Source: Prevotella sp.
Lineage (GTDB): Bacteria > Bacteroidota > Bacteroidia > Bacteroidales > Bacteroidaceae
Length of the DNA stretch: 36,956 nucleotides
Direction: 5' to 3'
NCBI GenBank assembly: GCA_017412705.1
Contig: JAFPWS010000001.1
Coordinates: 1 to 36,956, forward strand
Part shown: positions 761 through 36,956 of the stretch, piece after piece
Layout: each line of letters begins with the position of its first letter
Numbering within the stretch: position 1 is the first letter of the stretch
Program-made: the position numbers and the translations under genes
Notes under the pieces: model-generated
Databases searched by the model: none
Told to the model about the DNA's origin: nothing
Seen by the model: only the letters and a program-made list of their open reading frames with translations

Positions 761-1111
761 TTAGATACAGTTTGCGAATCCAGAGGAACTGATACTGGTT
801 ATACTACTTGGGATACTTATGCTTTTTAAATTGGTGCAACCACCGAAGGCCATTAGGGCAATGCTTGTAACAGAATAGCTGTTCCCTTCCGAATCATTAA
901 CCGATGATGGAATGTTAACGGCGCCCTGTGTGTTTTTGTCAATAGCAGGTTGAGCATTATAACCAACTTGAACCTCATTAGGGTTGACGCTTGTCACTTG
1001 AAAATTCATACCGTCTACTGTAAATCTGTCACCTACGGACAATGCTGCCCATGCACCAATTGGCATCATCAGGGCGATAATCACTAATAGTAATGAATAA
1101 AGTTTTCTCAT
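761..1111 (-). pseudogene. BspA-type leucine-rich-repeat secreted protein, 5' fragment
   Basis: The 116 residues begin with a clear signal peptide (basic MRKLY, hydrophobic core, cleavage after PIGAWA). They continue into one and a half LRR_5/BspA-type repeats (ALMAFGGCTNLKSISIPSS, then ITSISSSGFANCI) and stop. Family members usually carry many such repeats and a C-terminal domain and run to several hundred residues. The frame after the stop shows no more LRR-like residues, so the rest has been lost rather than frameshifted nearby. The signal peptide resembles that of the BspA-type gene at the right edge of the window, and both genes share the same ~310-nt upstream element S. Confidence 0.7.
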
Positions 1112-1150: not shown

Positions 1151-1462
1151 CTTCAGTCCAAGGGTCGGGGGTAGACAGAAAAAGAAAACGTGGACTGATT
1201 ACTTCGTCTACGTTTACCGAGGTATCGCCAAACACCATTGCACCATATCCGAGTAAAAGCCCACGCCGGTCGGCGTGAGCATCCATGCTTTTACTCTTGG
1301 TGCTTACTTTAATTTGGCGAATTTACGGTAAACAAGATTCAAGCGGACGCTTCTATTTTCTTTAAGGAGAACACCGTCGCGACTCGGCATAACTCAAGCA
1401 AGCTTGGTTCTGCTCTCGCTGCTCCGGCATTTCCTATATGTCTTTTGTCTTTGCTATGTCAT
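1151..1462 (-). repeat. Structured repeat S, left copy, upstream of the BspA-type fragment
   Basis: This ~310-bp sequence is repeated in inverted orientation near the right edge and ends about 40 nt before the BspA-type start codon. In gene sense it has a ~100-nt nearly invariant 5' part (1363-1462). After that comes a long interrupted hairpin with stems at 1212-1219/1326-1333 (GTTTACCG/CGGTAAAC), 1226-1232/1313-1319 (CGCCAAA/TTTGGCG), 1240-1245/1298-1303 (GCACCA/TGGTGC), 1251-1260/1287-1296 (GAGTAAAAGC/GCTTTTACTC) and 1262-1267/1272-1277 (CACGCC/GGCGTG). A last stem, CAGTCCA/TGGACTG, lies at 1154-1160/1191-1197. Stems that differ from the right copy still pair. It is probably a transcribed 5' leader; a DNA-level mobile or recombination element is the alternative. 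Confidence 0.75.
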
Positions 1463-22573: not shown

Positions 22574-22647
22574 TAGCGGGAGGGGGACCCGAACCCTCGA
22601 CCTCCGGATTATGAATCCGACGCTCTAACCAGCTGAGCTACCCCGCC
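22574..22647 (-). tRNA. tRNA-Met (CAT), elongator type
   Basis: The minus strand reads GGCGGGGTAGCTCAGCTGGT at the 5' end, with a standard D-arm. The anticodon arm has loop TTCATAA and CAT in the anticodon position, and the T-loop is TTCGGGT. The acceptor stem has G-T wobble pairs at both ends and one T-stem pair looks mismatched (A-C). CCA is not encoded. The first base G, paired to T, argues against an initiator tRNA. A CAT-anticodon tRNA-Ile with modified C34 cannot be fully excluded by eye. Confidence 0.85.
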
Positions 22648-34654: not shown

Positions 34655-34684
34655 TTGCGATTTAGAAGAAAATGTGTATATTTG
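34655..34684 (+). promoter_or_regulatory. Promoter of the RelB/RelE-type pair
   Basis: TATATTTG (34677-34684) is a good -7 box and a TTG at 34655 lies 19 bp upstream. The antitoxin start codon is 43 nt downstream. Confidence 0.6.
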
Positions 34685-34727
34685 CAGCGAGTTTATCAAT
34701 AAAGAAATTATTAAAAGTAATATAAAA

Positions 34728-34976
34728 ATGGCAAGACAGAATACAATCACCTCCCCAACAGCAACTGCAGAGATTTCACCAGTCGATGCACTTTGGGTGC
34801 TTATTCAGAGCCAGACAAAGGCTGTGCGTAAAGCTTTGACCAAACGCCTGATAGAAGATGAACAGAGTGCAAAGGCCAAGCAGGAGGCGATGGTGAAGGA
34901 TACATTAACTAAAGCCTTTGAACAACTTCATGCCGGAGAAGTATATGATGACGCACGCTCTTTGTTTGATGATTAA
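34728..34976 (+). CDS. Probable antitoxin of a RelE/ParE-type system
   Basis: The 82-residue protein has a disordered N-terminus (ARQNTITSPTATAEISPVDA), then a long helical segment (ALWVLIQSQTKAVRKALTKR) and an acidic end (YDDARSLFDD). It has no recognised DNA-binding domain, and I cannot name its family. The antitoxin call rests on its small size and on the RelE-like toxin gene that starts 11 nt downstream. The ATG at 34728 is preferred over an in-frame start at 34674, which lies upstream of the promoter's -7 box. Confidence 0.7.
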   Translation: MARQNTITSPTATAEISPVDALWVLIQSQTKAVRKALTKRLIEDEQSAKAKQEAMVKDTLTKAFEQLHAGEVYDDARSLFDD

Positions 34977-34987
34977 GTCAAAGAAAC

Positions 34988-35329
34988 ATGAAAGTAAAGT
35001 TCAAATACCTCCCAGAGTTTCAGCGTCTTGCTAAAGACTTGAAGAAGAAATACAAGTCTTTCAAGGAAGACTATAATACATTCCTTGATGAACTTGAACG
35101 TTCCCCCTTCAGCGGAGAACCTCTTGGACACCATACCTATAAAAACCGAATGGCTATCACATCCAAGGGAAAAGGGAAGAGTGGTGGGGCGCGTGTCATT
35201 ACCTACAATGTCAAGCAGATTGCAGACGATGAAGTCGTGATAACGCTAATGACCATCTATGACAAAAGTGAAATCAGCAACGTCTCGGATGCATACATTT
35301 GCAGCCTGATTAGAATGATAGAGAAATAA
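34988..35329 (+). CDS. RelE/ParE-type toxin
   Basis: The 113-residue basic protein fits the RelE/ParE superfamily: KYLPEFQRLAKDLKKKYKSF at the start, then the loop SPFSGEPLGHHTYKNRMAI, the strand GKGKSGGARVITYNV with a conserved Arg, and VVITLMTIYDKSE. RelE toxins cut mRNA at the ribosomal A site, and ParE toxins poison gyrase; which applies cannot be told here. Together with the upstream antitoxin it makes a complete type II module. Structured repeat S begins 36 nt downstream. Confidence 0.85.
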   Translation: MKVKFKYLPEFQRLAKDLKKKYKSFKEDYNTFLDELERSPFSGEPLGHHTYKNRMAITSKGKGKSGGARVITYNVKQIADDEVVITLMTIYDKSEISNVSDAYICSLIRMIEK

Positions 35330-35364
35330 ACAATAGTAGTAACAAACTAAAACCGCATGGCGTA

Positions 35365-35673
35365 TGACATAGCAAAGACAAAAGACATATAGGAAATGCC
35401 GGAGCAGCGAGAGCAGAACCAAGCTTGCTTGAGTTATGCCGAGTCGCGACGGTGTTCTCCTTAAGGAAAATTGAAGCGTCCGCTTGAATCTTGTTCTTCG
35501 AAATTTCGCCAAAATTTGAACAATCCAAGAGTAAAAGCAAGGATGCTCACGCCGATGGCGTGGGCTTTTACTCGTTAAGGATTGTAAGGTGTTTGGCGAT
35601 ACCTCGAAGAACGTAGACGAAGTAATCAGTCCACGTTTCTTTTTCTGTCTTCTCACAAGCATTTGGACTGAAG
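35365..35673 (+). repeat. Structured repeat S, right copy, upstream of a BspA-type gene
   Basis: This ~310-bp element is the inverted counterpart of 1151-1462. In gene sense the first ~100 nt are nearly identical to the left copy. The hairpin follows: GTTCTTCGA/TCGAAGAAC (35493-35501/35604-35612), CGCCAAA/TTTGGCG (35507-35513/35592-35598), ACAATCC/GGATTGT (35520-35526/35579-35585), GAGTAAAAGC/GCTTTTACTC (35529-35538/35564-35573) and CACGCC/GGCGTG (35548-35553/35557-35562). A 9-nt bulge, AAGGATGCT, is conserved before the tip. CAGTCCA/TGGACTG (35627-35633/35664-35670) closes a 30-nt loop. It ends 44 nt before the BspA-type start. A candidate promoter box, TACATTTG, lies at 35294-35301 inside the toxin gene. 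Confidence 0.75.
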
Positions 35674-35717
35674 AGACTATTCACATTCAATCAAACAATT
35701 CAAATAACAAGATAATT

Positions 35718-36956
35718 ATGATGAGACGATTTTACGCATTGCTTCCACTGCTTGCAATTCTTCTGATACCAACAGGAGCATGGGCAGACGTATGGCAAGA
35801 CCCAGAGACAAAAGTTAATTATGAGTATACACCTGGACAGAGTGAGGCCGGTGTGAAAAAGGGGACAGGTTGGGATAGTAATGATCAAGCCGGATGCCCA
35901 GAGGCATCAGGTGACATCGCTATATTATCCTCTTTTACTATAGGCGGAGAAACCTATACTGTTACCGAGATTAGAAATTACGCCTTTGCACATTGTAACA
36001 ATTTGACTTCCGTTAAAATCCCCAATACTATCAACTTTATCGGAATAGGTGCTTTTGCAGAATGCTGGTCTCTGCATTCAATAAACATTCCAGAATCTGT
36101 TAAATATTTATGTCCCTGTGCTTTCATGAGGTGTGCTCTCACATCAATAGACATTCCTGGCAGCGTAGAAAGTATTGGTTACCAAGCATTTCTTCAGTGC
36201 TCAAGACTTGAAACCGTTACCATTGGTGAAGGTGTCACTACTATTCGTGGAACTAATGTGTCAGATCATTTAGATGGTGGCGCATTCTCGTGGTGTTTCA
36301 ATTTGAAAAAGGTAACATTGCCCGAATCTCTAAAAGAAATTGGCACGGAGACTTTTGGAGGGTGCAATAAATTGTCTGCAATAGAGCTTCCCAAGAATCT
36401 GGAGAAGATTGGGAAGAAGGCATTTTATGGCACAGGGAATGAATGTGAAAGGTTTGATGTGTACTCCCATATCGAAGAGCCGTTTGCCCTTAATGAGGTG
36501 TTTGATGGAAATGGAAAGAATCCAGATGAAAACACCCTCTACGTCCCAGCTGGCACAAAAGCAAAGTACGAGGCCACCGATGGTTGGAAGGAGTTCAAGA
36601 ACATTGTGGAGATGGCTATGCTTGATCTGATAACTGGAGAAACGACAGTTAATACGGAAGGTCTCGGTAACGAGAACTTATCTGACAATGTAGTGAACTA
36701 CATTTACTACAATGTTGGCTCAGAGGGCTATGATGCAAGCGACAAGAGCGTGGTCATCAGCCAGACAACCAACATGGGGCAGATTACGGACGCCACACCA
36801 GGGTCAAGTGAGGTGAAGAACAACTTCAACGGTCTGATTCTGAAGGTGGCTGCTGGCAAGGGTACCATAACCGTGAATGTGAAGACCACGGGTAATGCGC
36901 AGTTAGTAGTTCAGGTTGGTAACGGCACACCTATGATTGCCTCAAAGACTGAGCAG
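35718..36956 (+). CDS. BspA-type leucine-rich-repeat secreted protein (5' part, runs off the window)
   Basis: The open frame encodes at least 413 residues. A signal peptide ends at PTGAWA. About six BspA/LRR_5-type repeats follow (~residues 75-240), for example NYAFAHCNNLTSVKIPNTIN, AFAECWSLHSINIPESVKYL and TFGGCNKLSAIELPKNLEKI. The repeat block closes with the typical LYVPAGTKAKYEATDGWKEF cap, then starts a second region (VNYIYYNVGSEGYDASDKSV onward) of beta-rich type. BspA proteins are surface or secreted adhesins. The C-terminus and any sorting tail lie outside the window. Start at 35718 or 35721 (two adjacent ATGs). It lies directly behind repeat S. Confidence 0.88.
   Translation, partial: MMRRFYALLPLLAILLIPTGAWADVWQDPETKVNYEYTPGQSEAGVKKGTGWDSNDQAGCPEASGDIAILSSFTIGGETYTVTEIRNYAFAHCNNLTSVKIPNTINFIGIGAFAECWSLHSINIPESVKYLCPCAFMRCALTSIDIPGSVESIGYQAFLQCSRLETVTIGEGVTTIRGTNVSDHLDGGAFSWCFNLKKVTLPESLKEIGTETFGGCNKLSAIELPKNLEKIGKKAFYGTGNECERFDVYSHIEEPFALNEVFDGNGKNPDENTLYVPAGTKAKYEATDGWKEFKNIVEMAMLDLITGETTVNTEGLGNENLSDNVVNYIYYNVGSEGYDASDKSVVISQTTNMGQITDATPGSSEVKNNFNGLILKVAAGKGTITVNVKTTGNAQLVVQVGNGTPMIASKTEQ

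Follow-up and report, generated by a model that had tools for sequence, protein, structure and literature searches.

Two BspA-type genes near opposite ends of this contig are preceded by the same structured repeat, which raises the question of what the repeat is, whether it acts as RNA or as DNA, and what it might do for the genes behind it. The window, by which we mean the whole 36,956-nucleotide stretch analysed here, is contig 53 of a Prevotella sp. genome (3.42 Mb, 96 contigs) that was searched alongside it. The preliminary description had pointed to a right copy and an inverted left copy sharing about 310 nt, and both are real: a blastn search with 35350-35700 matched 1151-1462 on the reverse strand at 89% identity (query 15-324). 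The differences reported between them were also present as claimed, the outermost stem reading GTTCTTCGA/TCGAAGAAC in one copy and GTTTACCG/CGGTAAAC in the other, and the middle stem ACAATCC/GGATTGT in one and a shifted GCACC/GGTGC in the other. The proposed hairpin folding was upheld, both copies (with a segment termed module A included) surpassing their shuffles with z-scores of -4.3 and -3.3 and none of 100 shuffles being as low for either. A BspA-type protein (LRR_5, Pfam) starts about 40 nt beyond the end of the repeat in both copies. The right gene (35718-36956, forward strand; LRR_5 E 6.2e-43) encodes a secreted protein and runs off the contig end, and the left ORF (761-1111, reverse strand; LRR_5 E 3.7e-8, taken from the ORF list) is short, with a stop after 116 aa; both contig ends lie close to the repeats. 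In line with the preliminary description, no named RNA family in Rfam 15 matched either copy at gathering score. The sole match in the window at that score was a tRNA gene (22574-22647, reverse strand).

Two parts of the initial picture had to be revised, namely that the element has two copies and that it is a single unit. A covariance model (R1, 178 positions) was derived from 34 copies aligned with MAFFT, and with it cmsearch placed 12 copies in the host genome at E < 1e-5; the 13th (E 0.11) was an antisense match over the right copy. Module A (35389-35462) and a conserved family core are combined in the 310-nt repeat; the core spans 35472-35649 on the forward strand in the right copy (178 positions; 168.6 bits, E 1.2e-28 in its own genome) and 1175-1354 on the reverse strand in the left copy (175.6 bits, E 5.3e-30). 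Both window cores end 63-68 nt before the BspA-type start codon. Module A is a dispersed hairpin repeat at the 5' end of the leader, placed at 1364-1437 (reverse strand) in the left copy by sequence comparison, and is identical at 74/74 positions in three copies of its own genome. Of 182 unique cores, 3, all in the host genome, have module A no more than 300 nt away, and for the other 179 no blastn match (E<=1e-3) lay within that distance. Loci L004 and L013 carry module B, the long hairpin that constitutes the core, without module A, and many genomes of the genus, with some of the order, have module A on its own; as a separate query (52-101) it also matches a single Phocaeicola plasmid (OY726012.1) and a single phage contig (MT836274.1). 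Because module A is rare beside cores and dispersed alone elsewhere, we regard the 310-nt unit as a family element with a local insertion. A further common 5' segment, GCCTATGACATA...GACATATAG (window positions ~35353-35388), was seen directly upstream of many Prevotella-like cores.

The core is widespread beyond the host. At E <= 0.001 with R1 it was found in 144/200 genomes of the genus, in 147/393 genomes of the order Bacteroidales (89/206 genera) and in 47/395 genomes of the phylum (22/170 genera), all of which are lower bounds because just 6 to 13 candidates were scored per genome. At least 119 named loci carry it, mainly metagenome-assembled genomes (MAGs) of Prevotella, Prevotellaceae, Bacteroidaceae and Bacteroidales, many from the rumen; those listed include Muribaculaceae, Salinivirgaceae, Alistipes and the isolate Prevotella sp. 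tc2-28. One core record labelled Lachnospiraceae is taken to be a binning error. Counts were made on 182 unique elements, with two duplicates and six matches that were weak or antisense set aside. Against Rfam 15, the core of the right copy gave only a chance snoRNA match (E 2.3) in a scan up to E 10, and 34 further loci gave only a sub-threshold overlap with Acido-Lenti-1 (E 1.9, L060). The element was not recognised in the literature searched, including the parts of PMC9723704, PMC8040213 and PMC2864571 that were consulted; an earlier description may stand in a 2017 list of 224 motifs (NAR). We are highly confident that the core is a structured leader-RNA family of Bacteroidota, and we judge it to be new, although of a known general kind, with no match in Rfam 15.

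To ask whether the fold is under selection, as the compensatory changes had suggested, covariation was scored in 132 elements of <85% identity, aligned without reference to structure. This set leaves out nine divergent elements (L091, L182-L185, L012, L053, L011, L054). All 14,878 column pairs received a G-test score with average-product correction, and the null distribution came from 300 simulations that re-placed the column substitutions on a FastTree tree. Six pairs reached E<0.05 and eight E<1, and all eight fell within the helices P2, P3 or P4; in an earlier run with 141 sequences four pairs had passed E<0.05, each within P3 or P4. Helix covariation is thus significant family-wide against a tree-based null, in agreement with selection on structure. 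The first whole structure (P1 and T included) had shown double changes in 28/49 pairs, amounting to 190 cells, compared with 59 +/- 7 for shuffled and 34-81 for slid controls.

Sequence comparison shows a rod of P2, P3, P4 and P5 capped by the apical hairpin P6. The 5' strand of P2 (35493-35501, partner 35604-35612) contributed one pair at E<0.05 and two more at 0.07 and 0.98, and that of P4 (35520-35526, partner 35579-35585) four pairs at E<0.05. The stems that had been called invariant, such as P3 (5' strand UCGCCAAA, 35506-35513, partner 35592-35599), are unchanged between the window copies but covary across the family: one P3 pair is CG in 89, GC in 41 and UA in 1 of 131 elements, and the helix has been swapped wholesale among lineages (CGCC/GGCG, CGGC/GCCG, GGGG/CCCC). 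Independent double changes on the tree numbered up to 36 for a P4 pair, up to 34 for a P2 pair and, with none broken, 15 for a P3 pair. P5 (5' strand GAGUAAAA, 35529-35536, partner 35566-35573) was paired in 842/1012 cells and P6 (GCUCACGCC-GAU-GGCGUGGGC, 35545-35565; -15.0 kcal/mol) in 1157/1184. Since GGUG pairs with UACC across the 3' strand of P3, the pattern makes an H-type pseudoknot around P3 (P7, 35588-35603), paired in 519/527 cells, with one pair UA in 112 and CG in 16 of 132 elements over six double-change events. No pair of P7, nor of P8, T or P10 (described below), reached E<1 under the tree-based null in the 132-element set. A wider set of 87 copies (58 order-level, 29 class/phylum-level) was paired in 662/684 cells of P2, 575/577 of P3 and 494/510 of P4, where column composition predicts 425, 383 and 230, figures that are biased towards the model because the alignment was fitted to R1.

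The placement of the core relative to the downstream genes is consistent. For the 160 of 182 unique elements with at least 700 nt downstream (ORFs of at least 60 aa counted), a same-strand ORF began within 600 nt in 159, within 150 nt in 152 and at 20-75 nt in 127, with a median of 47 nt; one of the 152 near ORFs begins 4 nt inside the model end. The mirror control, divergent ORFs on the upstream side, gave 34/162 within 150 nt and 9 at 20-75 nt. Order-level copies had a start codon within 150 nt in 34/37 cases, and class/phylum-level copies had an ORF within 150 nt in 7/29, at 151-500 nt in 19/29 and none within 500 nt in 3/29. Upstream, the motif TAnnTTTG, which we take to be the Bacteroidetes -7 box, was present 130-20 nt before 88/177 elements, most often at 50-80 nt, where shuffled sequence gave 8.8 +/- 2.8, the reverse strand 11 and the downstream side 14/160; it also occurred in 49/65 order- and phylum-level copies, counted without a shuffle control. 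In the window copies the box was absent from this usual interval: the left copy had none within 260 nt upstream; for the right copy a box was seen within a RelE-like ORF, 178 nt before the core, a distance to which module A adds about 79 nt. The promoter-like boxes of the family partly support transcription of the leader. ORFs upstream of the element (34674-35329 in the window, and at other copies) were often of toxin-antitoxin type among the 100 scanned of 157, a count made without a control; their domains, which may overlap, included NTP_transf_2 (8), HepT-like (7), HEPN (6), PIN_3 (4), and RelE, ParE, YoeB and DUF4160 (2 each).

The proteins encoded downstream share a destination. By our own heuristic, 121/152 have signal-peptide-like N-termini, compared with 141/599 control ORFs of at least 150 aa. 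Among 148 of the 155 eligible downstream proteins scanned with Pfam we observed LRR_5 (BspA) in 50, LRR_8 in 34, FNIP in 12, Dockerin_1 in 6 and OMP_b-brl in 5, with 55 families in total; no common pathway was found among the 148, secretion being shared instead. Seven of the 29 class/phylum-level copies lie 192-237 nt before a protein starting MNxFSF, and the two of these that were scanned contain TonB-receptor Plug and CarboxypepD_reg-like domains.

Near its 3' end the core also carries a U-run (35636-35647; at least five T in 10 nt counted in 131/132 copies), so that in Bacteroidales a conserved run of U appears shortly ahead of the start codon. A promoter-like box at one end and a U-run at the other would yield an RNA of an estimated 240 nt, several copies occur per genome, and the class/phylum-level gene is often >190 nt away, all of which would suit an independent, trans-acting small RNA with its own promoter and terminator, whose location before genes is secondary. 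We consider this quite unlikely, as the narrow spacing to the start codon and the enrichment in signal-peptide-like proteins point to action in cis, and the most variable parts of the element are paired stems and not target-seeking loops or tails.

The preliminary description had left open a 5'-leader RNA or a structured DNA element. The near same-strand genes, the upstream -7 boxes and the helix covariation support the leader-RNA reading, control of the genes being a proposal. The conserved wobbles agree with RNA: G-U pairs outnumber A-C mismatches 227:5 in P6, 125:3 in P7 and 125:1 in P11, largely from few conserved positions, and P2 (42:35), P4 (16:19) and P5 (85:82) have no clear excess. 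One observation that would suit mobile DNA is a rapid exchange of stems. The right window gene has a near-twin in a Prevotella MAG (locus L103) whose protein is 99% identical (299 aa of the first 300) and whose gene-region DNA matches at 1008/1191 aligned positions, with long gaps. The counted leader blocks outside P2, P4 and P5-P6, followed from 24 nt ahead of module A through the end of T, are free of mismatches, while P2 and P4 together differ at 15/36 aligned bases, P5-P6 at 4/46 and the stretch from the U-run to the start codon at 5/81. The two P2 strands of L103 do not match one another, as if recombined. Across the family, at least seven consecutive P2 pairs are kept in 157 of the 163 readable elements (of 182). 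We read this exchange as gene conversion among copies, with selection probably purging mismatched chimeras. Recombinant-looking leaders with mismatched P2 strands were seen at L103:5414-5594, L151:1971-2151 and L062:4670-4847, and L041 resembles a P3 chimera.

A recombination or transposition site that folds when single-stranded, like attC or a MITE, would also account for stems that differ beside a nearly identical protein and for the insertion of module A in three copies. Orientation and gene spacing are fixed, and promoter boxes, the U-run and conserved G-U pairs all speak for RNA, so we hold a DNA element to be very improbable. The gene-independent orientation and mobile core relatives of such hairpins were not found in the position counts or in the plasmid and phage collections, where a blastn search with the window query at E<=1e-5, too insensitive to pick up distant copies, returned no record of the core; ordinary gene conversion suits the exchange among copies.

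How such a leader might act is suggested by two strands that are complementary to the two sides of P6. The first lies at the 5' end, where AGCGUCC (P8, 35475-35481, partner 35541-35547) complements GGAUGCU, which overlaps the 5' side of P6. In the 132 elements, pair 5-76 is GC in 80, AU in 28 and GU in 23, standard in 131/132 where 113.8 are expected, and pair 10-71 is CG in 66 and AU in 28 but is paired in only 27/84 of the wide set. In that wide set, whose alignment was made with model R1, which does not contain P8, pair 7-74 is GC in 36, GU in 26, AU in 17 and UA in 5 (84/87 vs 67.5 expected). Over eight positions 521/693 wide-set cells are paired where 505 are expected, just one pair varying informatively and the others barely varying or, at the ends, failing to pair. 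Two further helices were tried. P1, a simple 5' hairpin of AAGC/GCUU, was rejected in Bacteroidales in favour of P8 (pair 5-12 paired in 101/132, 101.7 expected); it may still form in the wide set, since its pairs are almost all complementary in the fitted alignment (250/261, 247 expected). P9 (GAGU/GCUC) was promising in Bacteroidales and was rejected when it failed in the wide set (203/343 vs 200.5 expected).

The second strand is the tail GUCCACG (35629-35635) directly before the U-run, complementary to the P6 3' strand CGUGGGC at 35559-35565 (P11). This pairing, in a register chosen by sliding, holds in 904/918 cells of the 132-element set and in 632/755 cells of the wide set (617 expected; 319-509 in slid controls). 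At least five consecutive pairs can form in 228/250 copies, compared with 34.9% for shuffled tails and 13/250 for the P6 5' strand; L091 was left out for this test, as were three additional matches in antisense, and 250 of the 255 unique elements were examined. Most P11 positions are nearly invariant; the covariation here rests on 11 variant copies and on a permutation that ignores relatedness. In the 158/255 elements where both motifs fit the search pattern, P6 strands ending GGAC go with tails in GUCC (7/7) and those ending GAGC with GCUC (4/4; Fisher p 0.003, uncorrected for relatedness), and those ending GGGC occur with both (128 and 19). Among 74 P11 variants the copies' own tails score 1111, compared with 1009 +/- 16 when permuted, a value reached in 0/500 permutations (relatedness ignored); 48 of the 74 are the consensus shifted by the stem finder, and in the other 26, whose P6 3' strand really departs from the consensus, this strand fits the copy's own tail better than the consensus strand would in 12, equally well in 3 and worse in 11, for which the 7-nt cut is partly responsible.

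The tail also forms the 3' arm of a local terminator-like hairpin, T (CGUAGAC/GUCCACG, 35612-35635), in which pairs 148-163 and 149-162 covary. T was considered as a universal terminator and rejected, the hairpin being mostly limited to Prevotella-like copies and weak (-4.3 kcal/mol). A predicted hairpin abuts the U-run in 110/131 Bacteroidales, 9/58 order-level and 9/25 class/phylum-level copies and in 52/124 reversed controls; with dG <= -5 the numbers are 50, 4, 4 and 1. A simple terminator scan of 35300-35760 picks the P6 hairpin instead of T (1 found; shuffles 0.4). A conserved A-C mismatch in T, present in 122/130 Prevotella-like copies, makes sense if its 3' arm also pairs with P6. Finally, a strand at 35572-35578 may pair with 35614-35620, overlapping the T 5' arm, as an antiterminator (P10). 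Its pairs, counted in Bacteroidales only, include 104-151 (CG 114, UA 10), 105-150 (GC 113, AU 7) and 109-146 (AU 118, GC 7), with double changes in three pairs; the middle pair 107-148 mostly fails (78/129 paired). For the exclusive pairings as a whole, P6 against P8 plus P11 and P10 against T, the complementarity is clear and the covariation partial.

Since P8 and P11 can both compete for P6, and the tail lies before a U-run, the arrangement suggests a strand-exchange transcription attenuator. With P6 closed, the tail would be unpaired and polymerase would read through. Were the 5' end to take the 5' side of P6 (P8), the freed 3' strand could pair with the tail (P11), and this GC-rich helix directly before the U-run would stop transcription. 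The exchange is energetically allowed, with predicted energies of -15.0 for the P6 hairpin against -9.4 for P8 plus -9.9 for P11. In Prevotella-like copies, the weak local T and the competing P10 may add a second layer; P2 and P4, highly variable with pairing kept, would serve as scaffold. The direction of the switch is presumed, and its signal could be a metabolite, a protein or an RNA. Our preferred reading, held with little more than even confidence, is that the leader is a transcription attenuator, riboswitch-like or protein-responsive with ligand binding conjectural, for genes of mostly secreted or envelope proteins. Against it, P11 would have to form over a long range, past a paired rod, and may fold too slowly for termination, the window copies have no near -7 box, local T is weak, and the downstream genes have no common pathway.

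Some of these points would suit a stable, non-switching leader that protects or insulates the 5' end of the mRNA, the U-run having another role: the fold is very stable (z -4.3, module A included), and a general role accounts more readily than one ligand for downstream genes so diverse. A protector, however, needs neither P8 and P11, which are incompatible with full P6, nor a U-run after the tail, and we regard this alternative as somewhat unlikely. Extending the attenuator reading, the leader may represent a phylum-wide, pseudoknotted, riboswitch-like class in which both RNA ends invade P6, the terminator is built from the sensor core, and a large fraction of the surface and secreted proteins (BspA, TonB-dependent SusC-type receptors) is gated by a single signal; we offer this bolder version only tentatively.

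The choice of surface proteins is poorly understood in Bacteroidota, which dominate the communities of gut and rumen. If the proposal is true, the leader would be a missing layer of this control; it provides a testable switch design and a covariance model with which Bacteroidota genomes could be reannotated. Among known RNAs, 6S RNA is a long interrupted hairpin of ~180 nt, and the new leader resembles 6S-flavo RNA (RF01685) and bacterial 6S RNA in having this shape and length in Bacteroidetes. Unlike 6S, it is multi-copy per genome, stands before genes, and carries a pseudoknot and a U-run; no 6S match was found in the Rfam scans of the window and 34 loci. Flavo-1, Bacteroidales-1, Bacteroides-1 and Bacteroid-trp are structured RNA candidates of Bacteroidetes that have Rfam accessions (Weinberg 2010, the portion of PMC2864571 consulted), and none of them matched in the Rfam scans of the new leader. 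This separation applies to the motifs with an accession, and GUCCY-hairpin and Bacteroides-2 carry none in that portion. In Flavobacterium psychrophilum, 64 structured 5' regions are described, some with no Rfam match, and those named in the consulted part of PMC9723704 precede pheA, hisG, ftsY, acsA, alaS and rimP, genes other than those behind the new leader. The nearest idea among transcription-attenuating riboswitches, judging from the excerpt of PMC6478431 consulted, is the HMP-PP 'thiS' riboswitch, whose aptamer is embedded in a terminator. The new leader differs from such riboswitches in having no known ligand, no common downstream pathway and no Rfam riboswitch match, and has been found only in Bacteroidota, the sole phylum searched by model at whole-genome scale. 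It is like them, within what that excerpt describes, in being a structured leader, in having a U-run close to the start codon, and in a terminator strand that possibly pairs inside the conserved fold.
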